DNA of 64,000 bases. Origin: a virus. A program made the position numbers and the translations under genes. This document shows positions 34,363-57,231 of the stretch, in pieces; within the stretch, counting starts at the first letter, position 1; each line of letters opens with the position of its first letter. Location: positions 1 to 64,000 of IMG/VR virus record IMGVR_UViG_3300020463_000019, one strand, 5' to 3'. Under the pieces are notes generated by a model. The model was not told the DNA's origin and searched no databases. It was given only the letters and a program-made list of their open reading frames with translations.

Positions 34363-34791
34363 ATGAAAGTAATTGCACACAGAGGAAACTTGAAAGGTCC
34401 AAATCCTGAAAGAGAAAACTCTCCAGAGTATTTGCTTGAAGCAATAAAGGCTGGATATGACTGTGAAGTTGATGTTTGGTATGATAACAACAATCAACTA
34501 TACTTGGGACATAATAATCCTCAGTATAAAATTGATCATGCTTTTCTTAATAACAAGCACTTTTGGTGTCATGCTAAGAATTTAGAAGCACTAGAGTATA
34601 TGTTAGTTAATGATATACATTGCTTCTGGCATGAGCATGATGAACGAACTTTGACTAGCAAAGGCTTTATTTGGACATATCCAAAGCAGGAAACAAATTT
34701 TAAAAGTATTATCTGCATGATAAATCCAGAAGATACTGCACCAAAAGATTGTTATGGTATTTGTACTGACTGGGTAAACAAACACAAATAG
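34363..34791 (+). CDS. Short glycerophosphodiester phosphodiesterase-like protein
   Basis: A 142-residue protein with the catalytic opening of GDPD enzymes: AHRG (residues 5-8), the acidic pair E35 and D37 in CEVDVW, and H50 in LYLGHN. Full GDPD enzymes have about 240-300 residues, so much of the TIM barrel is missing, yet the metal and acid-base residues are kept. It could cleave glycerophosphodiesters of host lipids or teichoic-type polymers, or have become a transferase. Several uncharacterised marine phage proteins have this short form. Confidence 0.65.
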   Translation: MKVIAHRGNLKGPNPERENSPEYLLEAIKAGYDCEVDVWYDNNNQLYLGHNNPQYKIDHAFLNNKHFWCHAKNLEALEYMLVNDIHCFWHEHDERTLTSKGFIWTYPKQETNFKSIICMINPEDTAPKDCYGICTDWVNKHK

Positions 34792-35061: not shown

Positions 35062-35799
35062 ATGAAAATAGCAATTTGTTTTAGCGGACAACTTAGAGGT
35101 TCATGGAGAAAATGTGTGGAAAGTTGGAAGCAAACGTTTGGTCAGCATGAGCTATATTATTTTGGACATACATGGACAACTAGAAGTGCTCCTAATTTTA
35201 TTAAAGTAACAAAAGGTATAACAGATTTAGAAACTGTAGAAAATAGAGAAATACAACAACTAAAAAGAGAACTACCGGATATAAAGTTAAAAGTGGAAGA
35301 TCAAATTACTTTTACTCCTAACTTAGATCAAGCATTACATGATGTGAACTATCAAAGTCAGTTTTACGGTGTGATGCAAAGTGCAAACCTTAAACGTAAA
35401 CTTGAAATTGAAGAAAATCAAAATTTTGATTTATGTGTACGAGCTCGATGGGATACAATGTTTGATGAGGAATGGAATGTGCCTGAGCCAATCACTGATC
35501 ATGCACAAGTAATACATTTAGGATTTGATGCTAACGGACACAGAATGAGAGTTGGTGACATATACTGGCAAGCACCAAGTGAAGAGTTTGACTTAATGTG
35601 TGATTTTTATAGACACTTTCATAGACATCCTAAAGAATACTTTAACATGAATAACGATTTACATTATGGTCCAGAACATGTATTTGCATACTACTTGAAA
35701 GAGTGTAATTTAAATTTAACACAAATTTATCCGCCAGTTAAACTTGTGAGACCAAAGCCAGAACATGTGGTAGGAGCAGGTGACTATGAAACCGTCTAA
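35062..35799 (+). CDS. Glycosyltransferase-like protein, ICFSG family copy 1
   Basis: A 245-residue protein opening MKIAICFSGQLRGSWRKC and with NFDLCVRARWDTMFDE near residue 120. This ICFSGxLR plus (Y/F)DLxxxxRxD pattern is found in uncharacterised glycosyltransferase-like proteins of viruses and capsule clusters. The next gene encodes a paralogue (VAICFSGELRTF, DYDLVIKSRYDMLV). A GGACAATAG ribosome site precedes it. Activity and substrate are not known. Confidence 0.6.
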   Translation: MKIAICFSGQLRGSWRKCVESWKQTFGQHELYYFGHTWTTRSAPNFIKVTKGITDLETVENREIQQLKRELPDIKLKVEDQITFTPNLDQALHDVNYQSQFYGVMQSANLKRKLEIEENQNFDLCVRARWDTMFDEEWNVPEPITDHAQVIHLGFDANGHRMRVGDIYWQAPSEEFDLMCDFYRHFHRHPKEYFNMNNDLHYGPEHVFAYYLKECNLNLTQIYPPVKLVRPKPEHVVGAGDYETV

Positions 35800-36538: not shown

Positions 36539-37384
36539 ATGCATTTATTAACCGCAGGCGACAGTTGGACATTTGGAAGTGAAATTAAAGATGATGGTTT
36601 ACCACACACAGTAAGTGATTGGGATCCAGAAAACAATGCATTTCGTATTCCTAAAATTTGGCCTACACTATTGTCACAAAGATTAAATTGTAAAGATCAT
36701 ACAAACATAAGTTATCCAGCAAGTAGTAATGATAGAATAGTCAGACATACAATAAGTTGGATTACAGAACACTACCTACATGATAAAAAAGATACCAGTG
36801 ACTTATTTGTTATTGTTGGCTTTACAAGTCCTGAACGCAAAGACTTTTACTACAAAGATCCTGTTGATAGGAATCAACATGGCTGGACAACTATTTGGCC
36901 TAATCAAACTAATCATGAATATCATCAAAGAGGTATGCAGGCATTCTTTGACAATTATAGAATGTACTTGTGGAACGAAGAAGAATATTTAAATCGTTAT
37001 GTACAACAGGTAACACAACTGCAAAACTTTTTTACTGTACATGGTATCCAATATTATTTCTTCCAAGCATTTTATAATTTAGACGAGACAGGTATCACAC
37101 AATGGGTCGACAAAGGTTATATCAACAGTGAAAATGAAAAAATGGTTGTAGGAGAAAGCAACCCACGCTGGCACTTTCATTACAACAATCAACCTGATAA
37201 CTGGATATGGAAACAGGTTAACAGTGAAAGATTTTACGGCTATAATAAAGCACCACATACCTTTCATGGCTTCATTACACAAAATGCAAATGGTAGAGAA
37301 GTAATTGGAGGTATGCATCCTAATCCACATGGACATGTTTTATGGTGCCACGAACTTGGCAGATGTATAGAGGAGTTAATATGA
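36539..37384 (+). CDS. SGNH-hydrolase-like protein, copy 1
   Basis: A 281-residue protein with the SGNH/GDSL nucleophile block GDSWTFG (residues 7-13), a block with ISYPASSNDRIVRH (Asn of block III), and a C-terminal GMHPNPHGH carrying the catalytic-type His. The usual Asp three residues before that His is not obvious. Family members are esterases or acyl hydrolases acting on O-acyl groups of sugars. Two further paralogues follow (38195 and 38973). It starts one base after the previous stop and ends in an ATGA overlap. Confidence 0.65.
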   Translation: MHLLTAGDSWTFGSEIKDDGLPHTVSDWDPENNAFRIPKIWPTLLSQRLNCKDHTNISYPASSNDRIVRHTISWITEHYLHDKKDTSDLFVIVGFTSPERKDFYYKDPVDRNQHGWTTIWPNQTNHEYHQRGMQAFFDNYRMYLWNEEEYLNRYVQQVTQLQNFFTVHGIQYYFFQAFYNLDETGITQWVDKGYINSENEKMVVGESNPRWHFHYNNQPDNWIWKQVNSERFYGYNKAPHTFHGFITQNANGREVIGGMHPNPHGHVLWCHELGRCIEELI

Positions 37385-37497: not shown

Positions 37498-38205
37498 ATG
37501 ATTTTTATTAGTGCTCCATTTGGAAACTACTTACAATTCAAAAATGCAATTAGTGTTGCAGGAACTTTTACTGTATTGCCTCGTAAAGGAAGACTAAAAC
37601 AAATAATAAAAACACTACGTTATGTAAAAACTGATGCTGGCTGGAGTTGGCGAAATAAATTAGGATTACGAAATCCAGGATTGAGTGTTGCACAAAGGAC
37701 CGTAAACTTTGATAAGATCCTTAGTGTTGCCGCAATAGACGAGACAGATTGGACAAGTATATTCAATTCAATTAGTGCAGATCGCAACATAGAATTAAAT
37801 GTAAGTTGTCCCAACTTAGATTCACACAATGATACTACTACTTGGCAAGACTTTGATAAGTTTCCACGTAAGATGAGAAACAGATATTGTATAGTAAAAA
37901 TACCTCCTAATGCAACAGAAGAATTTATAGATAACATAGTTGATATGGGTTACAAACAGATACATGCAAGTAACACATTACCCACAGAGAAAGGTGGACT
38001 AAGTGGCAAAATATTAATGCCTCATACACTTGGAATAATTAGATACATAAAACAAAAACATCCTCACATTGAAATAATTGCAGGTGGCGGAATCACTACA
38101 TCCAAAGATGCAAAAATTTATAAGGGTGCAGGAGCAAATCATATAAGTCTAGGTAGCGTATGTTTTACTCCTTGGAAAATAAAAAGGATTATAAATGACA
38201 GTTGA
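37498..38205 (+). CDS. Short dihydroorotate-dehydrogenase-like protein
   Basis: A 235-residue TIM-barrel flavoprotein candidate. It carries the DHODH signature IELNVSCPN (Asn101 and Cys104, the class 1 base position), then CIVKIPPNATEEFI, HASNTLPTEKGGLSG and IIAGGGITTSKDAKIYKGAG, the FMN phosphate-binding end, and HISLGSVCF. Usual length is about 310 residues; the N-terminal part of the barrel is shortened. DHODH makes orotate for pyrimidines, but a phage enzyme could reduce or oxidise another substrate such as a tRNA uridine or sugar precursor. It sits between SGNH genes, without other pyrimidine genes. Confidence 0.75.
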   Translation: MIFISAPFGNYLQFKNAISVAGTFTVLPRKGRLKQIIKTLRYVKTDAGWSWRNKLGLRNPGLSVAQRTVNFDKILSVAAIDETDWTSIFNSISADRNIELNVSCPNLDSHNDTTTWQDFDKFPRKMRNRYCIVKIPPNATEEFIDNIVDMGYKQIHASNTLPTEKGGLSGKILMPHTLGIIRYIKQKHPHIEIIAGGGITTSKDAKIYKGAGANHISLGSVCFTPWKIKRIINDS

Positions 38206-38980
38206 TTTATTAGTAACCTGCGGCGATAGTTTTGCTTGTGGCAGTGGACTACCAGATGAAGATGCATTTGAAAAAAGTTATGCAGGTTTGACAGCCAAAG
38301 ACATTGGAGTAGAACAAAAAGTATTAGCAAGACCAGGTTGTTGTAATTACATAATTTTCTTACAAATTAAATGGGCAATAGAAAATTTAACACAAGCAAA
38401 TAAACCTTTTGTTTTAATTACAATGACTAATGCGGCTAGAACGGCCTGGTACAAGCCTTTCCAAAATAAACCTTCAGGTGTATCACCTAGCATTGAACAT
38501 TTGAATTATCAAGACTATCCTCCTTATGATACGCACACCCGGAAGACTATGCGTAGACCAATACCTGTGCAGACTGATAACAGTCTACAAAGCGAAACAT
38601 TAACTAACTTAGATACGTTTCTAGATGAAAGTGCAGTTGCGGCATGGCCACAATTTAGTCACGAACCACAAGCAAGAATTAAAACATTAAGAGATTGGGT
38701 AGCAGACTTTTTTAACTTTGAAATTAAAAATGATTATGACAATGGAATACTAGCACAAGGACACTTGTTGTTGAAGAAACATAATATACCACATTTGTTT
38801 ATGGGTTGGCAACCACAGTTTGGGGATCTATTACCTGAGGAAAATTATGTAGCAGTTGACTGGGGATATTGGAGTCAAAATTACCCAGACGATAGAGGTA
38901 CAGGACATTGTGATTATCGAGGACACGACTTAGTCTACAAAGAAATCATCAAGAAAGTAAAGGCACAAGTAAATGATTAA
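38195..38980 (+). CDS. SGNH-hydrolase-like protein, copy 2
   Basis: A 261-residue protein with block I TCGDSFACGSG near the N terminus, RPGCCNYIIF as a block III-like segment, and GHCDYRGHD near the C terminus. It is the most diverged of the three SGNH-like proteins, and the first part of the usual DxxH pair is unclear. Overlaps the DHODH-like gene by 11 bases and the next SGNH gene by 8. Confidence 0.55.
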   Translation: MTVDLLVTCGDSFACGSGLPDEDAFEKSYAGLTAKDIGVEQKVLARPGCCNYIIFLQIKWAIENLTQANKPFVLITMTNAARTAWYKPFQNKPSGVSPSIEHLNYQDYPPYDTHTRKTMRRPIPVQTDNSLQSETLTNLDTFLDESAVAAWPQFSHEPQARIKTLRDWVADFFNFEIKNDYDNGILAQGHLLLKKHNIPHLFMGWQPQFGDLLPEENYVAVDWGYWSQNYPDDRGTGHCDYRGHDLVYKEIIKKVKAQVND

Positions 38981-39719
38981 AACATTATATACTAACGGAG
39001 ATAGTTGGACATTTGGACAAGAACTGAAGGATGATGAAGCAGATCATTTAACACACAAGTTTTATAATAGTTGGCCATGGCATCTAAGTCAGCATCTTAG
39101 AATACCACAACTTGTAAATGATGCACTGGGAGGAACAAGTAACTATCGCATACTAAGACGTACACTTGATTATATTCAAAACTATAAAGGCAAGTACAAA
39201 GAACTAATGGTAGTAGTTGCATGGACAACATATGAAAGAAAAGAAGTACCAGTTGAGATTTTGCGTAAACATAATAACGGGCACACTGCTTGGGAAGAAA
39301 ACAATTTAGAATATGTAAGTGTGTTAATGAATAGTGTGCCAGATGTTGACACCGGCGATAGTGTAGTTGATAGAACAATATTAGATTGGCATAAAACAAG
39401 TACAATGTTAAACAGTCAACAACACAATGCTAAAGAATTTTATAATCAACAATGGACATTAAAACATGTATGTAAAAGTCTAGGCATTAACTTATTACAA
39501 TGCTATGCACTTGATAATCCAGAGTTTGCAGGACAAACTGCAAACAAAGAATGGCTTGAACAAATCATGCCTTTGCCCACAAGTTTAAACAGAATGTTAA
39601 TGGCGATAGAACACGAACAAGATGTACGAGCACCACTGCGGCACCCTAACGAAGAGGGCCATAAATATATAGCAGAGCAAATACAATCTCAAATACCCTT
39701 TTTCAAAAATTATACATAA
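38973..39719 (+). CDS. SGNH-hydrolase-like protein, copy 3
   Basis: A 248-residue paralogue of the protein at 36539. Both have NGDSWTFG or AGDSWTFG at the start, an Asn-containing turn (ALGGTSNYRILRRT here), VVAWTTYERK or VGFTSPERK in the middle, and RHPNEEGH or MHPNPHGH at the end. Retention of Ser, Asn and His suggests an active esterase or acyltransferase. Three copies in 3.2 kb suggests several acylated substrates or a multistep process. Confidence 0.6.
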   Translation: MIKTLYTNGDSWTFGQELKDDEADHLTHKFYNSWPWHLSQHLRIPQLVNDALGGTSNYRILRRTLDYIQNYKGKYKELMVVVAWTTYERKEVPVEILRKHNNGHTAWEENNLEYVSVLMNSVPDVDTGDSVVDRTILDWHKTSTMLNSQQHNAKEFYNQQWTLKHVCKSLGINLLQCYALDNPEFAGQTANKEWLEQIMPLPTSLNRMLMAIEHEQDVRAPLRHPNEEGHKYIAEQIQSQIPFFKNYT

Positions 39720-39860: not shown

Positions 39861-40088
39861 ATGGCTGACATTATAGATTTCAAACCCAAAGAAACAGTTT
39901 ACATATTAAATTTTACTAGTCCTAGTCCTGTTAAAATGACAAAGTCAGGAAAAGAAAAAATTGCATTAGAGATTCGTAAGGTTGATGAAAACCATGGAGT
40001 AGGACAAGCATGGGTACCTGCTTTAAACATTAGAGAAGCAAAGAGCAAACTTTGCAAAATGATAGAAGTGCTAGAGTTTCAAGACTAA
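39861..40088 (+). CDS. Hypothetical protein, 75 residues
   Basis: Starts eight bases after the previous stop, preceded by AGGAGG, an almost perfect ribosome site. The protein is a small alpha/beta domain (ETVYILNFTSPSPVKMTKSG, LNIREAKSKLCKMIEVLEF) without a recognised family. The last base of its TAA is the first base of the next ATG. Confidence 0.6.
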   Translation: MADIIDFKPKETVYILNFTSPSPVKMTKSGKEKIALEIRKVDENHGVGQAWVPALNIREAKSKLCKMIEVLEFQD

Positions 40089-40810
40089 TGAATATTATAA
40101 TTGGAATGGCAGGAGCAGGTCGCAGATTTGCTGACAGTGGCTATACTTTACCTAAACCCTTGTGCCGTGTAGGTGATACTACAATGATACAAAAGGCAGT
40201 TGATAGTTTAGGTGTTGAAGGCAAATATATCTTTGTAGTTTTACATGAACACCTATTACAGTACAAATGGTTAGAAGCACACTTGGCAAGTCTTGCTAGG
40301 TACGTTACTATTGTAAAACTTGATGAAGTAACTGAAGGTGCCGCTTGTACTTTACTACATGCAAAACAATACATAGACACAGATGAACCCTTGATCAGTA
40401 TTAACAGTGATCAAGTTTTACATTGGGATAGTAAAAAGTTTATAGGCAAGTGCAAGGAAGAACCTGATGTTTCTTGGATAATGACTTATCCACATACAGA
40501 TATCAAACATAGTTTTGTTAAAGTTAATGAGTACGGAGTGGTTATCGAAACTGCTGAAAAAGTTGCTATCAGTGAAATGGCTAGTGTAGGTTTATATCAT
40601 TGGAGTAAAGGAAGTTTATTTGTTGAAGGTGCAGAACAAATGATTGCAAACAATGATAAACACAACAATGAATTTTATATTGCACCAGTTTACAACTACA
40701 CAGTCAAAACACATTTAGTGAAGCCGTACCAAGTAGATGCAACTAACTTTAGTCCTGTTGGGACGCCGTCAGACCTTGCAGTATTCAATAACAAGTATTA
40801 CAAAAAGTGA
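40088..40810 (+). CDS. Sugar-phosphate nucleotidyltransferase
   Basis: A 240-residue enzyme expected to join a sugar 1-phosphate and an NTP to give an NDP-sugar. The signature is near the N terminus: IIGMAGAGRRFADSGYTLPK followed by PLCRVGDTTMIQKAV, matching the GxGxRF and PKPL motifs. A metal-type acidic site is likely in INSDQVLHWDSK (near residue 105). Length fits the catalytic domain alone. Start at 40088 gives a TAATG overlap. With the PMM2-like HAD enzyme four genes downstream it could make a GDP- or dTDP-sugar. Confidence 0.8.
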   Translation: MNIIIGMAGAGRRFADSGYTLPKPLCRVGDTTMIQKAVDSLGVEGKYIFVVLHEHLLQYKWLEAHLASLARYVTIVKLDEVTEGAACTLLHAKQYIDTDEPLISINSDQVLHWDSKKFIGKCKEEPDVSWIMTYPHTDIKHSFVKVNEYGVVIETAEKVAISEMASVGLYHWSKGSLFVEGAEQMIANNDKHNNEFYIAPVYNYTVKTHLVKPYQVDATNFSPVGTPSDLAVFNNKYYKK

Positions 40811-40923
40811 AAAAAGATAAACTAGGCACGCAGACTAGACGTCTTAATCGCAAACTTAAACACAAAGCAAAACGCAAAGGCAGAATAGATTTTAGAACAA
40901 ATAGACCAGGAAAAAGAAAATGA
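40807..40923 (+). CDS. Small highly basic protein, 38 residues
   Basis: A GTG start overlaps the preceding TGA stop (GTGA) and its TGA stop overlaps the next ATG (ATGA), so it is coupled on both sides and fills the gap exactly. The peptide starts MKKDKLGTQTRRLNRKLK and continues HKAKRKGRIDFRTNRPGK; about half the residues are Lys or Arg. Likely nucleic-acid binding or a charge partner for an acidic protein. Translation is inferred from packing only. Confidence 0.55.
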   Translation: MKKDKLGTQTRRLNRKLKHKAKRKGRIDFRTNRPGKRK

Positions 40924-41174
40924 ATGTTGAAGATTTACAATTCACAAGAGATAAAGATCAAGATATATGGAGAACATATTTAAATATTGGTTCGTATAAA
41001 ATGATGATAGGATGGTCAAAGTTTGGCAATGATTACATCATAACAATTACTGAAGATAACAAAATGGTTAATATAGAAAATGTAAACCCAGGACCAATGA
41101 TTACTTCAGGATTATCTAAAGAAGTATGTAATAAAAGAATAGAAAATATGTATGCATATGTGAACGAACAATGA
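40920..41174 (+). CDS. Hypothetical protein, 84 residues
   Basis: Small alpha/beta protein with WRTYLNIGSYKMMIGWSKFG in the middle and VCNKRIENMYAYVNEQ at the end. No recognised motif. Coupled by ATGA overlaps to the basic peptide before it and the cupin after it. Confidence 0.55.
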   Translation: MNVEDLQFTRDKDQDIWRTYLNIGSYKMMIGWSKFGNDYIITITEDNKMVNIENVNPGPMITSGLSKEVCNKRIENMYAYVNEQ

Positions 41175-41500
41175 AAAAGTATAAACTAGATGATATGAAA
41201 GGTGGATGGTTTGTAGGTAACTTTGAACCTAGCGTAATGAAAGCAAACTTTGAAGTTGGAATTCATCGACACACAAAAGGAGAGTTTCATCAGGACCACT
41301 TTCACAAAAAAGGCACTGAAGTAAATGTTATGAGAAAAGGCAAACTAAAGTTAAACGGAGAAATATTTGAACCCGGAGATATTTTTATTCTCTACCCTTA
41401 CGAAGTTAGCCAAGTAGAATACCTAACCGATGTTGAACTTACAGTAGTAAGAGATATGAGTGACCCTGACGACAAATATATGTTTGACATTAAGGACTAA
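41171..41500 (+). CDS. Cupin-fold protein
   Basis: A 109-residue single-domain cupin. Motif 1 is clear: HFHKKGTEVNVMRKGKLKLN, with the HxH, Glu and Gly residues of the metal site, preceded by an extra HRHTKGEFHQD. Motif 2 has FEPGDIFILYPYE, but the usual second-motif His is replaced by Glu or lost, so metal binding may differ. It precedes the RuBisCO-like gene by 17 bases, and could be a sugar isomerase or epimerase, a dioxygenase, or a binding protein. Acireductone dioxygenase was considered but the sequence does not fit it. Confidence 0.7.
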   Translation: MKKYKLDDMKGGWFVGNFEPSVMKANFEVGIHRHTKGEFHQDHFHKKGTEVNVMRKGKLKLNGEIFEPGDIFILYPYEVSQVEYLTDVELTVVRDMSDPDDKYMFDIKD

Positions 41501-41512
41501 AGAAAGTATAAT
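41484..41512 (+). promoter_or_regulatory. Perfect consensus sigma70 promoter before the RuBisCO-like gene
   Basis: TTGACA (41484-41489) and TATAAT (41507-41512) are both perfect and 17 bases apart. The -35 box lies in the end of the cupin gene. The predicted start of transcription falls at 41518-41519, on the start codon of the RuBisCO-like gene, so the transcript would be leaderless or nearly so. Confidence 0.65.
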
Positions 41513-41517
41513 AAAGT

Positions 41518-42663
41518 ATGTTAGATATATACGTTGATAGCGTTGACCCAAATGAATATTTTACAGTAACCTACAAACTTGAAGGTAACGATTTAAACAG
41601 AGCCGCCTTTGCACTAGCAGTAGGACAAAGTGTAGGTAACCCAAGTGTTCGTAATGAATATGAAACTCCTGAACTTATTGATCAGTATAGTGCTAAAGTA
41701 ATTGGCCACCCAGACAAACTTGCAGGAAAGTTATCAGGAATAGTCAAGATTGCTTGGCCATATAGAATTATTGACTGGGAAACAGATGGCATAGCACAAT
41801 TACTTTGTGTTGTAATGGGTGGACAAATGGACATTGATTATATTCACAGGTGCGAATTATTAGAACTAGATATTGATAGAGACTTGTGTGATGCAGTGGA
41901 ACCACGCTACGGACTTAATGGTATGCGACACTTAACAGGCAACTACAACAAACCGTTGCTGGGTAGTATTGTTAAACCTAAAACAGGATTAACAGGCAAA
42001 GCATTACAAGAAATTGTAAGTGCATTTGTAGAAGGTGGTGTAGACTTTATCAAAGAAGATGAGATTATGGCCAATCCAAGTTGCTTGCCTATTAAAGAAA
42101 GAATATGGCTAGTAGAAGATGTACTAAAAGGTAGCAACGTTGTTTACTGCTACTGCATCAATGCAGATCCCTTGCATGTATTAGACAGAGCAAAGATGGT
42201 AGCAGACAGAGGTGGTAACGGAGTACACATCAACTTTTGGAGTGGACATGGCGTATACAAAAGTATTAACAAACTTGACTTACCAATATACATACACTAT
42301 CAAAAAAGTGGTGACAAAGTATTAAGCAGTACAAAGAATGCTTATAGAATTGCTTGGCCAGTATTGTGTAAACTTGCAAGCCTCAGTGGAGTCGATACTA
42401 TACACACGGGCATGTGGGGTGGATACCTCAGTGACGATGAAAATGAATTGCGGCGGACTATGCTTATGCTAAGTTCAAACAATACTGTACCAGCATTAAG
42501 TTGTGGTATGACTGCTGAACTAATACCTGAAGTAACAAGACGCTTTGGTGTAGACTATCTAGCAAACGTTGGTGGTGCTATACATGAACACCCAAACGGC
42601 TTGACGGCAGGAACAAGAAAATTAAGAGATGCAATTGATAGAGAAGATAGGTCCGTAAGATGA
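41518..42663 (+). CDS. RuBisCO-like protein (form IV type)
   Basis: A 381-residue protein with the large-subunit RuBisCO fold. Loop 1 has GSIVKPKTGL (Lys153 and Lys155, equal to K175 and K177). The metal site GGVDFIKEDE keeps the carbamylated-type Lys179, Asp181 and Glu182. His260 and His296 match H294 and H327, Ser328 matches S379, and Gly352-Gly353 match the phosphate loop. Substitutions include Tyr261 for R295 and Tyr303 for the loop-6 lysine K334, so CO2 fixation is not expected; enolisation or isomerisation of a phosphorylated sugar is likelier. It overlaps the PMM2-like HAD gene by four bases. Confidence 0.85.
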   Translation: MLDIYVDSVDPNEYFTVTYKLEGNDLNRAAFALAVGQSVGNPSVRNEYETPELIDQYSAKVIGHPDKLAGKLSGIVKIAWPYRIIDWETDGIAQLLCVVMGGQMDIDYIHRCELLELDIDRDLCDAVEPRYGLNGMRHLTGNYNKPLLGSIVKPKTGLTGKALQEIVSAFVEGGVDFIKEDEIMANPSCLPIKERIWLVEDVLKGSNVVYCYCINADPLHVLDRAKMVADRGGNGVHINFWSGHGVYKSINKLDLPIYIHYQKSGDKVLSSTKNAYRIAWPVLCKLASLSGVDTIHTGMWGGYLSDDENELRRTMLMLSSNNTVPALSCGMTAELIPEVTRRFGVDYLANVGGAIHEHPNGLTAGTRKLRDAIDREDRSVR

Positions 42664-43361
42664 ATTATGCCTTTGATGTAGATGGAACTCTAGGCGAAGC
42701 AAGACAAATTATGGACCCAGACTTTAAGCGTTGGTTCATGCAATGGATGCGTGGTAAGAACGTTTACTTAGTTACTGGCAGCGATCGTGCCAAAACAGTT
42801 GAACAAATTGGCCAAGACCTTGTTGATAGATGTACAATGTCATTTCAATGTGCAGGTAATAGTGTATGGCAAAACGGTGTAGAAGTTTCTAGCACAAAAC
42901 TCAATGTGCCGCCAGAGATGATTCACTTTCTGGAAGAAAAGGTTGCCGCTACTAGTTACCCGGATCTCTATGGAAATCATATTGAAATCCGTCCTGGGCT
43001 AATCAACTTTAGTATTGTTGGCCGAAACGCTGTCGGTAACCAGAGAGATGATTATTATACTTGGGATCAAAAACACAAAGAGCGTGAGCAGATAGCCGAA
43101 GAGTTTAATAATAGATTTATAGGCTTTGAAGCCGAAGTAGGTGGAAATACAAGTTTGGACATACACTTAAAAGGACGTAACAAAGCACAAGTATATGATG
43201 TTATAGGTGCACCGTTGGTGTTCTTTGGCGATAGAATATTTCCCGGAGGCAATGACTATCCATTGCATTGTAGAATGATTGGTCCACAAGATAAAAGTCA
43301 TCCAGTAACAAGTGCAAGTGAAACTTGGAACTTATTAAAAGAATACTACAACCATGTCTGA
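42660..43361 (+). CDS. HAD-superfamily phosphomannomutase (PMM2-like)
   Basis: A 233-residue HAD enzyme resembling eukaryotic-type phosphomannomutase (about 245 residues). The nucleophile motif FDVDGTLGEARQ lines up with the PMM2 opening, VTGSDRAKTVEQIGQDLVD with motif II, RPGLINFSIVGR with the substrate-binding arginines of the cap, GGNTSLDIHLKG with the cap-to-core return, and FFGDRIFPGGNDYPL with motif IV. It should move phosphate between C6 and C1 of a hexose, supplying the nucleotidyltransferase. The overlap with the RuBisCO-like gene suggests a joint pathway. A simple phosphatase is the alternative. Confidence 0.75.
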   Translation: MNYAFDVDGTLGEARQIMDPDFKRWFMQWMRGKNVYLVTGSDRAKTVEQIGQDLVDRCTMSFQCAGNSVWQNGVEVSSTKLNVPPEMIHFLEEKVAATSYPDLYGNHIEIRPGLINFSIVGRNAVGNQRDDYYTWDQKHKEREQIAEEFNNRFIGFEAEVGGNTSLDIHLKGRNKAQVYDVIGAPLVFFGDRIFPGGNDYPLHCRMIGPQDKSHPVTSASETWNLLKEYYNHV

Positions 43362-44709
43362 GGGCATTGATCCACATGAGATGAAAGCCAAACTCAACAG
43401 GATTGGATCCGGATTCTGCCTAGCAAAGTGGACACAACTTACACTAAATTTACAGAATGGTACTGCACACAGTTGCCATCATCCTCCTGTACACAAGATA
43501 CCTGCAGAAGAATTAAAAGATAATCCAAGCGCCTTACATAATACTAAACACAAAAAAGAACGCAGGAAACAAATGCTCAACGGTGAACGACCAAGCGAGT
43601 GTGACTTTTGTTGGCGAATAGAAGATGCTGACAAAAATGCACTAAGTGATAGGCATTATAAGTCGGCTTTTAGTTGGAGTGCAGACCAGTTTGATCGTAT
43701 AGCATACAGCGATTCAACAGTAGACTATCAACCCTCTTATGTGGAAGTAAGTTTTTCACATGCGTGTAACTTTAAGTGTATGTATTGTTCGCCAAGTATA
43801 AGCACAAGTTGGATGAAAGAAGTAAAACAACATGGTGCCTTCCCTACTACTGATCGTTATAATAACATAGAGTGGATAGAGCAAACTGGAAAGATGCCGA
43901 TACCAACTCGTGAGTACAATCCTTATGTAGAAGCATTTTGGAAGTGGTGGCCTAGCCTATACAAAAGTTTACATACGTTTCGTATTACTGGAGGTGAGCC
44001 ATTGATGAGTAAGGACACGTTCCGTGTTATGGAATGGATACTAGAAACAGCCTCGCCAAATAAAAATCTGTTGTTAGGTATCAATAGTAACTTTGTTGTT
44101 GAACCAAAACTGTTTGAACGTTTTATTAATCTTACACAACAAATGCTTGACAGTAAACGTGTAAGAAAGTTTGAAATTTATACTAGTGCTGAAGCAAGTG
44201 GAGTTCGTGCAGAGTATATTAGATCCGGACTTGACTATCAAAAATTTTTAAGTAACATACATCGTGTGTGCAATTTATTTGGAGCAAGAGAAGATTTTAC
44301 ACTTACTTTCATGTGTACATACAATGCACTAAGTCTAAGTACGTTTACTGAATGGCTAAAAGATTTAGTTGAAGTTCGTAAGCGTTATGGTCTGTATAGC
44401 ATTTATATTGATGTTAGTTATGTACGTTATCCGGACATGATGGATATTAAGATACTTCCTGAATCATTTGAAAAGTATATACATGAGTCTATTGCTTATA
44501 TGGAAGAACAAGAGGCAAACGGATTAATGCACAAAAGCGAAACTGCAAAGTTAAAGCGTATTGTTTCCTATTGGAAAAGTACAAGAACAGTTAATCAGGA
44601 TACTCATCAAAGAAACTTTAAAGCATATACTGCGGAACTTGATAAGCGACGCAATACTTTGTTCTCAGATGTTTTTCCGGAATATAGTGCATGGTATGAC
44701 ACAATTTAA
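43354..44709 (+). CDS. Radical SAM enzyme with N-terminal Cys module, copy 1
   Basis: A 451-residue enzyme. The iron-sulfur motif SHACNFKCMYCSPS (CxxxCxxC, near residues 135-142) is followed by FRITGGEPLM, the GGE motif that helps bind S-adenosylmethionine. Before the barrel is a module of about 90 residues with paired cysteines (SCHHPP and CDFCWRIEDADKNALSDRHY), the arrangement also seen in the three enzymes at 54461, 55888 and 57228. It lies about 8 kb before the main array and overlaps the PMM2-like gene by eight bases. Substrate is unknown. Confidence 0.85.
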   Translation: MSEGIDPHEMKAKLNRIGSGFCLAKWTQLTLNLQNGTAHSCHHPPVHKIPAEELKDNPSALHNTKHKKERRKQMLNGERPSECDFCWRIEDADKNALSDRHYKSAFSWSADQFDRIAYSDSTVDYQPSYVEVSFSHACNFKCMYCSPSISTSWMKEVKQHGAFPTTDRYNNIEWIEQTGKMPIPTREYNPYVEAFWKWWPSLYKSLHTFRITGGEPLMSKDTFRVMEWILETASPNKNLLLGINSNFVVEPKLFERFINLTQQMLDSKRVRKFEIYTSAEASGVRAEYIRSGLDYQKFLSNIHRVCNLFGAREDFTLTFMCTYNALSLSTFTEWLKDLVEVRKRYGLYSIYIDVSYVRYPDMMDIKILPESFEKYIHESIAYMEEQEANGLMHKSETAKLKRIVSYWKSTRTVNQDTHQRNFKAYTAELDKRRNTLFSDVFPEYSAWYDTI

Positions 44710-49192: not shown

Positions 49193-50704
49193 ATGAGAGT
49201 ACTAGGAGTAAGTGCAGGCTTTCATGATGCAGGATTATCAGTTATTGCTGATGGCGAAATACTATTTGCAGGACATAGTGAAAGATATAGCAAACAAAAA
49301 CACGATCATCATTTATGTCCAGAAATTGTTACAAAGGCATTGGACTCTGTGTTTCCGTCTGAGATTGATGCTATTGCTTATTACGAAACACCATGGCTTA
49401 AAAAGACAAGAGAAATATATGCAGGGCAAGGCATTGAAGGCGGTGATAGAAGTAGCACATGGACTACTAAGGGTGCATTGAAAAAAGAGTTTGGAGACTT
49501 GTTACCTAACGCACCAGTGCATACATACCGGCATCATCATACACATGCCGCCGCTGGCTTTCAAACAAGTCCTTTCAAAGACGCAACAGTTGTTGTCATT
49601 GACGCTATAGGTGAATGGGAAACTATTACAATATGGTACGCATACTATGATAACAAAGGTCGTGCGTGTTATGAAAAGTTGTGGCGACAACGTTATCCAC
49701 ATAGTATTGGATTGTATTATAGTGCAATGACCGCACGACTTGGATTACGTCCACTTGATGAAGAATATATTATGATGGGTATGGCTGGTTGGGGTACTGC
49801 TAGTGGTTTAAATGAAAACTTGATTGAAAGTGAATTTGTACATGATATGGCAACACTACGTTTCAAACAAAATTTACACGCTGGCATTGACAAAAACTTT
49901 ATGATCAATATGAATGAATATGATATTGCCGCTAGAGCTCAGTATAGTGTTGAAAAAATGATAGACAATGTAATGTCAAGAGCAAGAGGCTTTAATAAAA
50001 GTCGTAACCTAGTTTATATGGGAGGAGTTGCACTTAACTGTTTATACAATCGCAAACTAGGAGACTTCTTTGACGATATATGGATTATGCCAAACCCTGG
50101 AGATTGTGGAAGTAGTTTAGGTGCCGCGGCACTTACATATGGCAAAAAAATTGAATGGGATAATCCTTACTTAGGAACATTCATATATGGACCTTATCCT
50201 ATCAGAGACTTGATAGATGAACTACAAACAAATAAAATTGTAGGAGTAGCAAACGGAAGAGCAGAGTTTGGACCAAGAGCGTTAGGCAATAGAAGTTTAC
50301 TAGCCGATCCACGGGGTCCTGAAATTAAAGATAAAGTAAACGAAATAAAACGTAGACAAAAGTTTAGACCGTTTGCTCCTATGATTCTCGAAGAGCATGT
50401 ACATGAATACTTTGACATGCCTGAGAAAACACCTACGTCGCCTTATATGCAAGTAGTTGCCAGATGTAAAAAGCCAGACGAGTTTCCTGCAATTATACAC
50501 GTTGACGGAACTAGCAGAGTACAAACAGTTGGCAAAGGTTGTTATGGCAGTGGTGTACGTTATTTACTAGAACAATGGTATGTGTTAACAGGTTGTCCTA
50601 TGTTGCTTAACACAAGTTTAAATATCAGAGGGGAGCCAATGGTTGATACAAGAGAAGATGCAGATAGATTTGAAAAAGAGTATGGAGTAAAAGTATGCAG
50701 TTAG
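49193..50704 (+). CDS. NodU/CmcH-family carbamoyltransferase
   Basis: A 503-residue enzyme that should transfer a carbamoyl group from carbamoyl phosphate to a hydroxyl. The start MRVLGVSAGFHDAGLSVI is the family's ATPase-like fold opening; AGHSERYSKQKHDHH and HHHTHAAAGF (residues 114-123) are the metal and adenylation-site motifs; VVVIDAIGEWET is a second nucleotide segment. GRAEFGPRALGNRSLLADPR and RPFAPMILEEH mark the C-terminal domain. NodU and the antibiotic enzymes CmcH and TobZ carbamoylate sugars. It begins one base after the amidinotransferase stop. Confidence 0.9.
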   Translation: MRVLGVSAGFHDAGLSVIADGEILFAGHSERYSKQKHDHHLCPEIVTKALDSVFPSEIDAIAYYETPWLKKTREIYAGQGIEGGDRSSTWTTKGALKKEFGDLLPNAPVHTYRHHHTHAAAGFQTSPFKDATVVVIDAIGEWETITIWYAYYDNKGRACYEKLWRQRYPHSIGLYYSAMTARLGLRPLDEEYIMMGMAGWGTASGLNENLIESEFVHDMATLRFKQNLHAGIDKNFMINMNEYDIAARAQYSVEKMIDNVMSRARGFNKSRNLVYMGGVALNCLYNRKLGDFFDDIWIMPNPGDCGSSLGAAALTYGKKIEWDNPYLGTFIYGPYPIRDLIDELQTNKIVGVANGRAEFGPRALGNRSLLADPRGPEIKDKVNEIKRRQKFRPFAPMILEEHVHEYFDMPEKTPTSPYMQVVARCKKPDEFPAIIHVDGTSRVQTVGKGCYGSGVRYLLEQWYVLTGCPMLLNTSLNIRGEPMVDTREDADRFEKEYGVKVCS

Positions 50705-52255: not shown

Positions 52256-52466
52256 ACTATCACTGCGTGAACAACAAAAAGAATGTGCTAGAGCCTTAGC
52301 ATCTATGAGTGCTACCAACAACAATATTCATCAATTCAACAAACAAGCACATCACAATAGTCACAACTGGTATTCTGCAGTCATTAACTGGTATGTAGAA
52401 CAGTATGGCGACTTACCCTCAAAGACTGGACCAGGACAAGAAGTTAAGTTAATCTTGGACAACTAA
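52242..52466 (+). CDS. Hypothetical protein, 74 residues
   Basis: Starts at TTG overlapping the preceding stop by 14 bases. The helical N terminus (LSLREQQKECARALASMSAT) leads to a His/Asn/Trp-rich middle (NNIHQFNKQAHHNSHNWYSA). No family recognised. Its last base is the first of the next ATG, so it is coupled to the radical SAM array and could be a small partner or substrate for it. Confidence 0.5.
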   Translation: MELDKLSLREQQKECARALASMSATNNNIHQFNKQAHHNSHNWYSAVINWYVEQYGDLPSKTGPGQEVKLILDN

Positions 52467-53392
52467 TGATTAATAGTATTACTACTGACGTTCCGAGCAG
52501 TTTAGATATTGAATGGGTAATCAACAATTACTGCAATTTTAATTGTAGTTATTGCACTCCTGACTTATTTGGTAACACTAGTAGAGCATTAGATTTACCT
52601 ATAGCAGTTGAGTTTTTTAACACAGTACATCAACAACATCCAGGAATAAAAATGCTAAGTCTCAGTGGAGGAGAACCTACACTGTGGAAGCATCTACCTG
52701 AGTTTGTTGATAGTGTAGCAAGTAACTACTTCTTTCATATTATTACCAACGGTAGTAGAACGCTTGACTGGTGGCGTAGATTCATGTATAAAAGAAAGAT
52801 AGACAGGATAACAATAAGTTTACATGTAGAGCAAATTAATTTTGATAAAACATTTGCCAATATAGAATTTTTACAAAACCAAACAGACTTAACTTTATTA
52901 GTATTACTAAAGCCTGGGTCAAAGGAAATACTAGAACAATTTGTAAAACGTATAACTGATGCAAAAATAAATGCAAGTATAAAAATAAAACCATTAACCT
53001 CGCATGATAATAGAAGTGTGTACAACTACAACAAAGACGAAAAATCATGGTTACAACACTTTAGTTACAACAAAGCAAACATAAATTCCTATAGTGGTAT
53101 TGCTAAAAGACTTATAGTTGATGGCAAAGAGCATAGCATGAGTTATGCTTACAAACTAGTTGCAGGTGGATTAAATAACTTTAGAGGTTGGAACTGTAAC
53201 TTAGGAAGTAGCCGAATGTTTATTTGGCACGATGGAAATGTGTTTCCTGCTACATGTAAAACTGCTATGGCAAGACCGATTGGCAATGTTTTTTCTAATA
53301 CGTTAGAAGTTAAAACATCAAGTACAAGATGTGCTGATGAGTTTTGTCATTGTGCACCTGATATTAGGATTACAAAAAGTAGAAATGTATAA
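52466..53392 (+). CDS. Radical SAM enzyme, array copy 2 (compact form)
   Basis: A 308-residue enzyme with VINNYCNFNCSYCTPDLFG (CxxxCxxC near residue 23) and KMLSLSGGEPTLWKHL (GGE). The barrel continues with FFHIITNGSRTLDWW and RITISLHVEQINFDKTF. The C-terminal 60 residues contain cysteines (WNCNLGSSRMFIWHD, FPATCKTAMARP, CADEFCHCAPD) in a SPASM-like auxiliary cluster arrangement. It lacks the long N-terminal module of the other forms. First member of the continuous array; overlaps the next gene by eight bases. Confidence 0.85.
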   Translation: MINSITTDVPSSLDIEWVINNYCNFNCSYCTPDLFGNTSRALDLPIAVEFFNTVHQQHPGIKMLSLSGGEPTLWKHLPEFVDSVASNYFFHIITNGSRTLDWWRRFMYKRKIDRITISLHVEQINFDKTFANIEFLQNQTDLTLLVLLKPGSKEILEQFVKRITDAKINASIKIKPLTSHDNRSVYNYNKDEKSWLQHFSYNKANINSYSGIAKRLIVDGKEHSMSYAYKLVAGGLNNFRGWNCNLGSSRMFIWHDGNVFPATCKTAMARPIGNVFSNTLEVKTSSTRCADEFCHCAPDIRITKSRNV

Positions 53393-54464
53393 ACTAGAAG
53401 ACATAAAGCAAATACATTTAGAAGTGACACAGAAGTGTCAGGCCGCGTGTCCTATGTGTGATCGCAATATGAATGGCAAAGGTATCAACCCGCATATTGA
53501 TTTGAGCGAACTTAGTTTAGAAGACTGCGAAAAAATGTTTCCGCCAGAGTTTATTGCACAACTAGATAGTATGTATATGTGTGGTAACTTAGGTGATCCT
53601 ATTATAGCAAAAGACTGTTTACAAATATTCCAATACTTTCGCAAACACAACAAAGACATGTGGTTGAGTATGAACACAAATGGTGGAGCACAAATACCAG
53701 CATGGTGGGCAGGACTTGCTAGTACTCTTAATCACAGAGGTGCAGTTATCTTTAGTGTTGACGGTTTAAAAGATACAAATCATATTTACAGACAAGGTGT
53801 AAGTTGGGACATAGTAGAACGTAGCATGAGAGCATTTGTAAAAGGTGGTGGTCGAGCAAGATGGGACTTCCTTATATTTGAACACAACCAACATCAAGTT
53901 GAACGAGCAAAAGCTCTTGCTATGGAGATTGGTTGCGAAAACTTTATTCCTAAGAAGACAGGAAGATTTGTTACTGCGACTACACAACCTAAAGAAGAAC
54001 ATGAAGGAAGCAATAGAAAAGGCACTGAGTCAATTGAGCTTAAGAAGCCTGACGATAAATATGTTAATAAAGCTCTTACTACTCAGCAAAAATTAATTGA
54101 AAAATACGGCGACATGGACAACTACTATGACGCAGTTCCTATTAAATGTAAAGTTGCAAGTTCAGGTAATCTTTTTATTACTGCTGAAGGCATGGCAATG
54201 CCGTGTTGTTGGACTGCTGGTCGTATGTATAAGTGGTGGCATAAAGATCCTAGAGTCGAACAGATATGGAACTTCATAGATGCACATGGAGGCAAACAAG
54301 GTTTAAGTGTAATTGAAAATGGACTACCTGCAGTATTTGACTCGGGTATATTTGACAGTATAAATGATAGTTGGAACAAAACAAGTTGTGCCGATGGCAA
54401 GTTAAAAGTATGTGCTATGAAGTGCGGTATTGAGTGGGATCCTTTTACGGAGCAATTTAAGTGA
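53385..54464 (+). CDS. Radical SAM/SPASM-like enzyme, array copy 3 (short form)
   Basis: A 359-residue enzyme. The ATG at 53385 sits inside the preceding stop region (ATGTATAA); a longer reading from 53331 adds only a hydrophobic leader and is rejected. HLEVTQKCQAACPMCDRNM carries CxxxCxxC near residue 18. The middle has MWLSMNTNGG, IFSVDGLKDTNHIYRQGVSW and RARWDFLIFEHNQHQVE, and the end has CKVASSGNLFITAEGMAMPC with CC and CAMKC as an auxiliary cluster. The proteins at 58655 and 59757 follow the same plan. Confidence 0.85.
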   Translation: MYKLEDIKQIHLEVTQKCQAACPMCDRNMNGKGINPHIDLSELSLEDCEKMFPPEFIAQLDSMYMCGNLGDPIIAKDCLQIFQYFRKHNKDMWLSMNTNGGAQIPAWWAGLASTLNHRGAVIFSVDGLKDTNHIYRQGVSWDIVERSMRAFVKGGGRARWDFLIFEHNQHQVERAKALAMEIGCENFIPKKTGRFVTATTQPKEEHEGSNRKGTESIELKKPDDKYVNKALTTQQKLIEKYGDMDNYYDAVPIKCKVASSGNLFITAEGMAMPCCWTAGRMYKWWHKDPRVEQIWNFIDAHGGKQGLSVIENGLPAVFDSGIFDSINDSWNKTSCADGKLKVCAMKCGIEWDPFTEQFK

Positions 54465-55891
54465 TAAACAAAACTGAAGACAAAGATCGTTACAATGATA
54501 TCAGCGAAACATTCTGTGCTTTGCCATGGTTACATTTAAGTAGTAGACCAGATGGCAAGATGCGTACTTGTTGTACTAGTAATGCAAGTAGTGTACAAGA
54601 TCCAGACAGTAGTAAAAAAGTAGGTGGTGGAGAAGTTGGTGTTGTAAAGAACAATGATGGCGTGCCTGCTAACTTTAATCACACAAGTTTAGAAGATGCT
54701 TGGAATAGTGACTACATGAAGAATGTACGCAAGATGATGTTGCGTGGAGAAAAGCCAGCACCTTGTCTAAAATGCTATAAGGAAGAAGAAGCAGGACATC
54801 TAAGCAAACGTAATTGGGAAACAAACTATTGGGGTAATAGATATAACTTACACAACTTAGTAGAAGAAACAGACATTACAGGAAAGATACCACCAAAGAT
54901 ACGTTACATTGATCTGCGTATGGGAAGTAAGTGTCAACTAGCATGTGTCATGTGTAGTCCACATGATAGCACAGGATGGATTAAAGAATGGAATAAAATC
55001 TATCCGCAAATAACAAATGAAAAATTAAAAAATACAAGTGCTTGGGATAACAAAGGTCGTAATGATGGTGCAAGTTATAATTGGCACAAAAACAATCCTA
55101 AGTTTTGGAGTGACTTGTACGAACAGATTCCGCACATGTATCAATTGTATTTTGCTGGTGGTGAAAGTTTAATCATTGATGAACACTATGACTTGTTAGA
55201 AGAATGTATTAAAAATGGCTACGCAAAGAACATTGAGTTGCGTTACAATAGTAATGCAGTTGAATGGCGTGATGACTTGTTTGACTTGTGGGCAGAATTT
55301 AAACGTGTGAGATTCCACTACAGTATAGACGCACATGGAGAACACAATGACTATATACGCTACCCAACAGATTGGAAACATCAAGAAGAAGTATTCTGGA
55401 AGTTGGACAATACTAGTGACAATGTAGAAGTAACAACCGCTACAACTATTATGGCACTCAACGTTGGATACATTCCAGAGTTTGTGCAATGGAAAGTAGC
55501 ACAGAACTTTCGTAAGATAAACAAATGGCCGTTAGGAGCAGGAGGTATTAACATGCATTTTGCTTACTGGCCACCTCAGTTAAATGTTAAAGTATTGCCG
55601 GCTGAAGTAAAACAAACTATAACAGACAAGTACGAACAAGAGTTCATACCTTGGATGATGGATAACTGGCAAAGTTTTACAGGAGTCAAAGAAGCAGGAC
55701 TAACACAAGAACAATGGCTAAGTGCTCCATACGGAGTAAAAAGATTTCGTGGCATTATCAAGTTTATGAATGCAGAAGACTGGACACAACGTTTACCAGA
55801 AACAAGACAGTACTTAAACCTAGTAAACAAACAACGTGGATGGGAAACAAAGTTTCTTGAAGTCTTTCCGTTGTTCAAGGAAGTGCTATGA
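54461..55891 (+). CDS. Radical SAM enzyme with N-terminal Cys module, array copy 4
   Basis: A 476-residue enzyme with a GTG start in a four-base overlap. The N-terminal module reads FCALPWLHLSSRPDGKMRTC followed by CTS, then PCLKCYKEEEAGHLSKRNWE. The barrel motif is LRMGSKCQLACVMCSPHDST (CxxxCxxC near residue 155-162), followed by LYFAGGESLIIDEHYDLLEE (GGE). RFHYSIDAHGEHNDYIRYPT is a conserved later segment shared with the proteins at 55888 and 57228. This form resembles the twitch/SPASM-related proteins found in many marine T4-like genomes. Substrate unknown. Confidence 0.85.
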   Translation: MINKTEDKDRYNDISETFCALPWLHLSSRPDGKMRTCCTSNASSVQDPDSSKKVGGGEVGVVKNNDGVPANFNHTSLEDAWNSDYMKNVRKMMLRGEKPAPCLKCYKEEEAGHLSKRNWETNYWGNRYNLHNLVEETDITGKIPPKIRYIDLRMGSKCQLACVMCSPHDSTGWIKEWNKIYPQITNEKLKNTSAWDNKGRNDGASYNWHKNNPKFWSDLYEQIPHMYQLYFAGGESLIIDEHYDLLEECIKNGYAKNIELRYNSNAVEWRDDLFDLWAEFKRVRFHYSIDAHGEHNDYIRYPTDWKHQEEVFWKLDNTSDNVEVTTATTIMALNVGYIPEFVQWKVAQNFRKINKWPLGAGGINMHFAYWPPQLNVKVLPAEVKQTITDKYEQEFIPWMMDNWQSFTGVKEAGLTQEQWLSAPYGVKRFRGIIKFMNAEDWTQRLPETRQYLNLVNKQRGWETKFLEVFPLFKEVL

Positions 55892-57231
55892 CAGAACTAA
55901 ACATGGATAGGTTTTGTGTTGTTCCTTTTGTGCAGTTAAACACAAGAGGCAAAGGTGATGCACGAGTATGTTGTAGTATCGATGGATTAAACTATGGCGT
56001 ACCAAAACATTTAACACTTGATCAAGTTAATCCAGATACATACAACGGCAAAGACACAGAAGTATATAACCTACAACATGATGATATATCAGACTTATGG
56101 AACAGTGACTTTATGCGAGACTTCCGACAAAAGATGTTGGCAGGTGAATATATACCCAACTGTGAGTTTTGTTACAGAATGGAAAACAGTGGACTTAGTA
56201 GTAAGCGACTAGGCAAGAACAAAATATTCTTAGAGCGAACACTTCCGTTCTTACAAGACTATGCAAACGCTAACGGACATGTTGACAAAATGCCACAGTG
56301 GTGGGAGATACGTTTAAGTACCAAGTGTAACCTAAGTTGTATTATGTGTGCTCCAAGTTTGAGTACTATGATGTATAAAGAATATGCAAAGTGGCGTAAG
56401 GATGGAACAGGAAGTCAATACACAAATGGAGCATTGGCTATTGCAGAAGACAGTGGCGAAGAGTTTTTAAGTAAGAGTGAGTTCTTTCGTGATCAAGTTA
56501 CAAGTAATCTGCAACATGTTTTATACATGGAGTTTAGAGGTGGTGAAGTATTTGCAGACAAAGAAAGCATAGACTTTATTGAAGCAGTAAGTTATACAGA
56601 ATATGCCGCAGGCATTACGCTAGATATCTCAACAAACGCTACACTAATTAATAAAAGAGTAGTAGACATACTTAATAGATTCAAAGGTGGTAAACTAAGA
56701 CTTAGTATTGATGCGTACAAAGAAGCAGATGAATGGATACGCTATCATACAGACTGGAATGCAGTAATTAGAAGTATGGAAATAATGCATGGCTTACACA
56801 ACAAGTGGAAGTTCCTAACACAAACAACAGTACAATTTTTAAACTGCTTAACATTAGATGAACTAGTAGTGTTCTTTAATGATTACATTATGGAACAACG
56901 AGACGAAAGATTCTTTTTAGGATTTACAAGTGTAAGAGGTAAAGACTGGTTACGACATGAGATGGTACCTAATAGTATTCGTGAACCAGCAGTACAACGC
57001 ATGAAAGAACTAAAACGCACATTACCTATATTCCAAACCAATTGGAAAAATTCAGAACAACTTAACAAAGCAATGGATCAACTTATAAGTGTATTAAGCG
57101 ATACAGAATATACAGAAGAAGCAAAAGTAGAACTTGCACCTAAAGCAAGAAACTTTTTTGAAACACTAACTAGAGTTCGAAAGAAAGATTACTTCGAACA
57201 GTTTCCACACATTAATCAGAGTATAGCATGA
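55888..57231 (+). CDS. Radical SAM enzyme with N-terminal Cys module, array copy 5
   Basis: A 447-residue paralogue. FCVVPFVQLNTRGKGDARVC and CEFCYRMENSGLSSKRLGKN form the N-terminal cysteine module. IRLSTKCNLSCIMCAPSLST carries CxxxCxxC near residue 150; the usual GGE is GGEV in MEFRGGEVFADKES. LRLSIDAYKEADEWIRYHTD corresponds to the late segment in copy 4. Overlaps both neighbours by four bases, indicating coupled translation. Confidence 0.85.
   Translation: MTELNMDRFCVVPFVQLNTRGKGDARVCCSIDGLNYGVPKHLTLDQVNPDTYNGKDTEVYNLQHDDISDLWNSDFMRDFRQKMLAGEYIPNCEFCYRMENSGLSSKRLGKNKIFLERTLPFLQDYANANGHVDKMPQWWEIRLSTKCNLSCIMCAPSLSTMMYKEYAKWRKDGTGSQYTNGALAIAEDSGEEFLSKSEFFRDQVTSNLQHVLYMEFRGGEVFADKESIDFIEAVSYTEYAAGITLDISTNATLINKRVVDILNRFKGGKLRLSIDAYKEADEWIRYHTDWNAVIRSMEIMHGLHNKWKFLTQTTVQFLNCLTLDELVVFFNDYIMEQRDERFFLGFTSVRGKDWLRHEMVPNSIREPAVQRMKELKRTLPIFQTNWKNSEQLNKAMDQLISVLSDTEYTEEAKVELAPKARNFFETLTRVRKKDYFEQFPHINQSIA

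Follow-up and report, generated by a model that had tools for sequence, protein, structure and literature searches.

When a virus carries a gene of the RuBisCO family, does the encoded protein fix carbon, or does it carry out some other chemistry? This question was raised by a RuBisCO-like protein (RLP) encoded in a stretch of phage DNA referred to here as the window (bases 1 to 64000 of the 66.3-kb IMG/VR virus record IMGVR_UViG_3300020463_000019). Phage baseplate, tail-lysozyme, and virion genes were present in the window, and its large baseplate-wedge protein was 36% identical to jumbo myophage counterparts, e.g., those of Atu_ph07 and PBECO4. Genes of the rbcL type in viruses are not wholly new, since surveys of auxiliary metabolic genes list them (PMC8506154, PMC12607003). 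In Great Salt Lake, viral rbcL was read as Calvin-cycle carbon fixation (PMC8506154); in a landfill survey, one viral rbcL grouped with proteins termed 'RbcL-like', and random IMG/VR viruses were seen to encode the function as well (PMC12607003). Our analysis led to a different answer, which we hold to be probable though well short of certain, namely, that the RLP does not carboxylate but uses Mg2+ and a carbamylated lysine to isomerise or epimerise a mono-phosphorylated sugar by enolisation, as a step that feeds nucleotide-sugar synthesis. No publication was found on the function of the clade to which this RLP belongs or on its gene cassette, polysaccharide context, or replacement pattern.

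Fold, active site, and relatives of the RLP

The RLP matched the Pfam RuBisCO_large domain with an E value of 1.6e-32 (113 bits versus a cut-off of 30.1), and its best PDB match was 2cwx (E 4.7e-31). An AlphaFold (AF2) model, built from 53 family members, had a predicted local distance difference test (pLDDT) score of 92.2 and aligned to the RuBisCO structure 2cwx over 372 residues with a Z of 41.4 and 27% identity. Comparison with four relatives (82 to 84% identical) gave a ratio of nonsynonymous to synonymous substitution rates (dN/dS) of 0.07 to 0.09, which indicated strong constraint (purifying selection) on the gene. Because of this low ratio and the Pfam, PDB, and model matches, the open reading frame (ORF) is not a chance feature, and by domain and fold the RLP belongs to the RuBisCO superfamily.

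A scan of IMG/VR detected at least 171 RLP loci, 80 of which were kept; viral counts below cover 81 loci. RuBisCO numbering was assigned by profile-profile alignment (hhalign) of the RLP family with RuBisCO. All 81 viral copies had K153, K155, K179, D181, E182, H237, N239, H260, and Q262, as well as Y303, S328, C329, G330, G352, and G353, and nearly all of these residues were kept in cellular relatives. The metal site (K179, D181, and E182, equivalent to RuBisCO K201, D203, and E204) was likewise invariant in all aligned cellular copies and was retained in the predicted structure, in agreement with an earlier note on this DNA which had proposed that the carbamylated-lysine site was kept and had taken its loss from a predicted structure as refuting. 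Lysines K153 and K155 correspond to RuBisCO K175 and K177, the enolisation lysines. The residues equivalent to RuBisCO K334 and H294 were replaced throughout the family by Tyr303 and Gln262, and the position of R295 (Lys263 in the window) was occupied by Lys in 54 and Ser in 27 of the 81 copies. RuBisCO position 293 corresponded to Tyr261 in the window and to Phe in 49/81 copies, and further replacements were found at E60 (Gly36), T65 (Asn41), W66 (Pro42), and N123 (Gly102). The earlier note had placed Tyr at both K334 and R295. The former assignment was confirmed, but the latter was two positions off, as the Tyr in question lies at position 293, and an Arg295-to-Tyr replacement was ruled out by hhalign comparisons with RuBisCO, OiaX, and kinase-linked RLP profiles. 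A short match to MtnW (H-x-x-x-S-G) suggested a different register for H294 and R295, which disagrees with these three profiles.

As read from the alignment, the metal and enolisation groups of the RLP are retained and the carboxylation set Glu60/Asn123/His294/Arg295/Lys334 is lost. The protein is, on these residues, a form IV RLP in the broad sense, i.e., a RuBisCO homologue without the carboxylase residues; where genuine RuBisCO (forms I to III) has Lys334, Glu60, His294, and Arg295, it has Tyr, Gly, Gln, and Lys or Ser. The pattern of residues kept and lost supports the metal-binding, non-carboxylating protein envisaged in the earlier note. Furthermore, retention of the P1-loop glycines and loss of the P2 Arg suggests a mono-phosphorylated substrate. 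The signature of the clade was G-x-x-x-x-N-P, H237, H-[FY]-Q-x-S-G, Y303, and SCG.

A maximum-likelihood tree was constructed from 40 viral and 21 cellular rows of the family with MtnW, OiaX, kinase-linked RLPs, and RuBisCO forms I to III as references. A branch with 100/100 support parted the family from all of these references, including the MtnW enolases, a grouping with which the earlier note had regarded as fatal to its proposal. Viral sequences were mixed in among cellular ones on this tree, those of SAR11 included. Scores against NCBIfam equivalog models were all far below the cut-offs: 101.3 versus 513.6 bits and 129.5 versus 409 bits for the MtnW models TIGR03332 and NF007095, 115.6 versus 700 bits for the OiaX model NF042437, and 133.6 versus 497 for the form III RuBisCO model.

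The RLP had no tblastn match in 50,697 INPHARED records of cultured phages and was assigned no PHROG, and none of the viral models listed from BFVD had a RuBisCO fold (the best match, with a TMq of 0.43, was not a RuBisCO). The T4-type capsid gene gp23 was detected on 14/46 RLP records tested, including a 306-kb contig whose RLP was 83% identical; in view of these records and of the tail and baseplate genes of the window, an artefactual origin or the presence of bacterial DNA in the viral bins was rejected. Cellular relatives (37 to 52% identity) were found in SAR11, three species of Legionella, Azospirillum, Elusimicrobia, Bacteroidota, Patescibacteria, Verrucomicrobia, and DPANN metagenome-assembled genomes, with a patchy distribution (2/297 Pelagibacterales genomes and 4/22 Legionella genomes). 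A scan for viral members of the RuBisCO family with one narrow pattern, derived from RuBisCO and other RLPs, yielded 8 loci, all of which carried the signature of this clade; no carbon-fixing RuBisCO was found among the 8 viral loci from that single scan. The Global Ocean Sampling (GOS) survey reported 65 sequences that fell into none of the known RuBisCO groups (PMC1821046), and the clade may overlap the unassigned marine RLP groups of that survey.

Gene partners of the RLP and loci that lack it

Genes within 10 kb of the RLP were counted. A sugar nucleotidyltransferase (NTase) family was near the RLP in 80/81 viral loci, a GDPD-like protein (145 amino acids [aa]) in 68/81, and a cupin in 58/81, and the commonest order was NTase-cupin-RLP-GDPD. 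An 'SGQLR' family protein recurred in 38/81 loci. The corresponding genes of the window are listed in Table 1; here the GDPD-like gene lies 6.7 kb upstream of the RLP, while elsewhere it is often directly downstream. The earlier note had tied the RLP to the making of an activated sugar through the upstream cupin and NTase and an overlapping PMM2-like gene. These neighbours and the overlap are real, and the link to sugar activation was supported by the NTase counts. The emphasis on the PMM2-like enzyme was unsupported, because the recurrent partners are the NTase, the cupin, and the GDPD-like protein, the last of which had been missed; with a presence in only about 10/81 loci, the PMM2-like enzyme was ruled out as a defining partner. 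Its gene scored 87.7 bits against PF03332 (cut-off, 22.4) and had the catalytic motifs in an alignment to 5ue7, and by these sequence measures it is a eukaryotic-type phosphomannomutase.

Table 1. Positions of the RLP, its neighbours in the window, and NTase fusions in cyanophage loci
Feature	Position	Strand	Basis or remark
RuBisCO-like protein (RLP), 381 aa	41518..42663	+	Pfam, PDB match, AlphaFold model, alignment, tree
Sugar nucleotidyltransferase (NTase)	40088..40810	+	NTP_transferase superfamily, phrog_3980; nearest solved structure 4evw
84-aa ORF, NTase-cupin interval	40920..41174	+	4-nucleotide overlap with cupin
Small cupin, 109 aa, phrog_24762	41171..41500	+	Directly upstream of RLP
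PMM2-like HAD phosphomutase	42660..43361	+	Pfam PMM above cut-off; 4-nucleotide overlap with RLP (42660/42663)
Miniature GDPD-fold phosphodiesterase-like protein, 142 aa, phrog_34507	34363..34791	+	Motifs, predicted structure
'SGQLR' family protein, putative glycan transferase	35062..35799	+	Relatives match DUF7796 weakly
Cyanophage NTase fusions with RpiB, RibB (DHBP synthase), or HAD domain	L128:6992-8149, L129:6001-7428, L124:5341-6726

The model of the GDPD-like protein had a pLDDT of 96.8 and a Z of 10.9 to 1o1z over 136/142 residues, and nearly all top structural matches were GDPD-fold proteins. The active-site residues H6, E35, D37, and H50 (HRG, E-x-D, and GHD motifs) were retained. 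Neither the window copy nor the SAR11 copies matched Pfam GDPD at E values of up to 0.5, and the profile of the family matched a PDB GDPD (E 1.8e-4) in its N-terminal part only. Such a small predicted GDPD barrel, its catalytic motifs intact, was widespread in phage and SAR11 glycan loci. The NTase ORF is open from a TTG at 40052, and the start conserved among relatives is the ATG given in Table 1. The 84-aa ORF had no relative in other RLP loci. Recurrent Pfam families among 115 representative phage neighbours were methyltransferases, GT2/8/10, WavE, epimerases, and NeuB.

In cells, the NTase was near the RLP in 20/23 loci. The cassette of one SAR11 locus adjoined genes for an O-antigen ligase, a polysaccharide flippase, an epimerase, and a glycosyltransferase, and that of another cellular locus (L087) lay beside a flippase gene. 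Judged by these neighbours, the cellular cassette is located in surface-polysaccharide loci. In all three Legionella species, a LicD-family gene in divergent orientation lay next to the RLP-NTase pair, a hint that transfer of the activated group may take place as a phosphodiester.

Cultured Synechococcus phages had the NTase, the GDPD-like gene, and sometimes the cupin without an RLP. Their NTase was fused to RpiB in Bellamy and SynMITS9220M01, to RibB in S-SKS1, and to a HAD domain in S-CAM9 and B23. IMG/VR phage loci were compared after being fetched by RpiB (n = 80), the SAR11 NTase (n = 80), or RibB (n = 16). The RpiB-fetched loci contained an NTase::RpiB fusion in 79/80 cases, with a PfkB kinase in 78, a cupin in 77, a KdsC-like phosphatase in 75, and a GDPD-like protein in 67. 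RLP was present in none of these 80 loci, and RpiB was present in none of the 81 RLP loci. Among the loci fetched by the SAR11 NTase, 68/80 had a HAD::NTase fusion and 9/80 had an RLP, with no overlap between the two; all 16 RibB-fetched loci had an NTase, fused in 10, and RLP was found in 1. RpiB and RibB both use ribulose 5-phosphate as the substrate. The most economical interpretation is that the RLP occupies the place in the cassette where the sugar phosphate is prepared. The RibB-NTase fusion in phages suggests an activated product of ribulose-5-phosphate cleavage. The RLP and RibB do not exclude each other strictly: one phage locus (L073) encoded an RLP, a cupin, a GDPD-like protein, and a free-standing RibB (12565-13173).

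Other features of the window were observed outside the cassette. Several radical SAM/SPASM-type proteins were clustered at 43354-44709 and 52466-59776, and a NodU-type carbamoyltransferase gene (49193-50704) adjoins. Two DUF6071 paralogues (36539-37384 and 38973-39719) and a related-looking gene (38195-38980) flank a dihydroorotate-dehydrogenase-like gene (37498-38205). One ORF of 4323 aa spans 12346-25317 and is possibly a giant structural or tail protein.

Proposed reaction and alternatives

The reaction, substrate, nucleotide, and end use proposed for the RLP pathway are what we infer from the residues and gene contexts described above. K179, activated by bicarbonate (carbamylated) and acting with Mg2+, would take a proton from the position adjacent to the carbonyl group of a mono-phosphorylated sugar, and return of the proton at another position would yield an isomer or epimer. 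Tyr303 and Gln262 would stand in for the carboxylation groups. The substrate would most likely be a ketopentose phosphate of the ribulose or xylulose type, and the neighbouring NTase would take the sugar phosphate from the RLP and convert it to a nucleoside diphosphate-sugar. The cupin, to judge from its fold only, probably performs a further isomerisation or epimerisation, and the GDPD-fold protein (again from fold only) and the 'SGQLR' protein probably serve a phosphodiester or transfer step. The product would decorate a surface glycan; in cells this would be the capsule or the O-antigen, and in phages a glycan of the virion or of the host surface. The R. rubrum RLP and MtnW are precedents for, respectively, an isomerase and an enolase within the RLP superfamily (see the review PMC6302742), and D-fructose-6-phosphate cytidylyltransferase is an NTase that uses a ketose phosphate (PMC10918830).

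Several points weigh against this proposal. The miniature GDPD has no obvious role in a simple sugar activation, and the enzyme activity of the RLP is itself predicted from its residues. RpiB works via a 1,2-enediol and RLPs usually work via a 2,3-enediol(ate). Swapping between cassettes argues for an analogous role and not for an identical substrate; the non-overlap of RLP and RpiB is a descriptive pattern and not a controlled test, because each set was fetched by its own marker, and HAD and RibB were present in 8/81 and 1/81 RLP loci, respectively. The NTase family is also diverse, with the RpiB-fused and RLP-linked members joined at an SH-aLRT of 89 only.

The alternative that comes nearest in likelihood, although we regard it as unlikely, concerns the end use: the activated sugar could serve hypermodification of phage DNA or protein and not a surface glycan. 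T4-like phages glycosylate their own DNA, and a DNA methylase gene was among the phage neighbours of the RLP, but the same cassette occurs in bacterial O-antigen and capsule loci and the phage neighbours are lipopolysaccharide-type transferases (WavE, GT2, GT8, and GT10) and methyltransferases. A slightly less likely alternative is that the RLP is a decarboxylase or retro-Claisen enzyme that, like OiaX (3-oxo-isoapionate-4-phosphate decarboxylase) of apiose catabolism, acts on a beta-keto-acid sugar phosphate, making or trimming a branched sugar before activation. OiaX has the same fold and metal site, its profile was among the matches of the RLP, and it likewise differs from RuBisCO at K177 and N123. 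However, the RLP scored far under the OiaX cut-off and was separate on the tree; OiaX retains H-x-H-R and Lys334 where the RLP family has Q, K/S, and Tyr, and the four-carbon acid-sugar kinase gene that adjoins plasmid OiaX and related RLP genes was not seen here.

The pairing of the RLP with a cupin is that of R. rubrum (PMC6302742), and MtnW models were among the best structural matches, as would be expected if the RLP acted in methylthioadenosine salvage, either as MtnW (DK-MTP-1-P enolase) or as an R. rubrum-like 5-methylthioribulose-1-phosphate isomerase working with the cupin. This role was not supported by the NCBIfam scores or the tree, on which MtnW stood apart at full support; the neighbours were glycan genes and an NTase, with no salvage genes identified, and we consider the role improbable. 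Least credible, to the point of being nearly negligible, is the interpretation given to viral 'rbcL' calls in earlier work (PMC8506154, PMC12607003), in which the RLP would be an auxiliary metabolic gene for a RuBisCO that fixes carbon. The RuBisCO_large domain and the complete metal site are compatible with it, but K334, E60, N123, H294, and R295 were all replaced, K334 and H294 invariantly, the form III score was far too low, and no phosphoribulokinase was noticed near the RLP.

A non-carboxylating isomerase or epimerase that feeds nucleotide-sugar synthesis is hence the reading that we favour. To the broader proposal, that a branch of the RuBisCO superfamily, carried mainly by aquatic jumbo and T4-like phages, was recruited as a nucleotide-sugar isomerase interchangeable with RpiB, so that viral 'rbcL' genes of this clade are glycan genes, we give about the same weight as to its negation. 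Few RuBisCO-like branches have an assigned reaction, and this abundant one, which occurs in numerous large phages of aquatic habitats and in a small number of bacteria and archaea, has a tight and testable gene context, in which the comparison with RpiB and RibB points to ketopentose-phosphate chemistry feeding glycan synthesis. If true, a biosynthetic role would be added to the RuBisCO superfamily, along with a route to an activated sugar in marine phages and SAR11, and carbon-fixation readings of viral rbcL would be corrected where the gene belongs to this clade, as it did throughout the pattern scan.

Comparison with known systems

Form IV RLPs, including the marine IV-GOS group, resemble the RLP described here in keeping the RuBisCO fold and metal site while lacking part of the carboxylation set; the present RLP differs from the other members in its own active-site signature and its fixed sugar-activation cassette. 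With MtnW, the 2,3-diketo-5-methylthiopentyl-1-phosphate enolase, it shares the fold (Z of 39.2 to 2oem), the metal site, the 'IHGHP' phosphate loop, and enolisation without carboxylation, the last being a predicted property of the RLP. MtnW differs in lacking Lys177, which the RLP keeps, and in its separate position on the tree, and no methionine-salvage genes were identified by the RLP. OiaX and the kinase-linked RLPs also act on phosphorylated sugars, but in acid-sugar catabolism; they keep Lys334 and the His294-Arg295 pair, are encoded in operons with a four-carbon acid-sugar kinase, and are separate on the tree.

Among gene cassettes, the NTase::RpiB cassettes of cyanophages (e.g., Synechococcus phage Bellamy) have the same NTase, cupin, and GDPD-like families, with an RpiB fusion, a PfkB kinase, and a KdsC-like phosphatase in the place of the RLP. 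The D-fructose-6-phosphate cytidylyltransferase HS5.18 of the C. jejuni HS:5 capsule is a surface-polysaccharide NTase which activates a ketose phosphate, as is proposed for the NTase of the window; HS5.18 is assigned to PF01128, while the NTase described here scored best with NTP_transferase/GlmU-type models.

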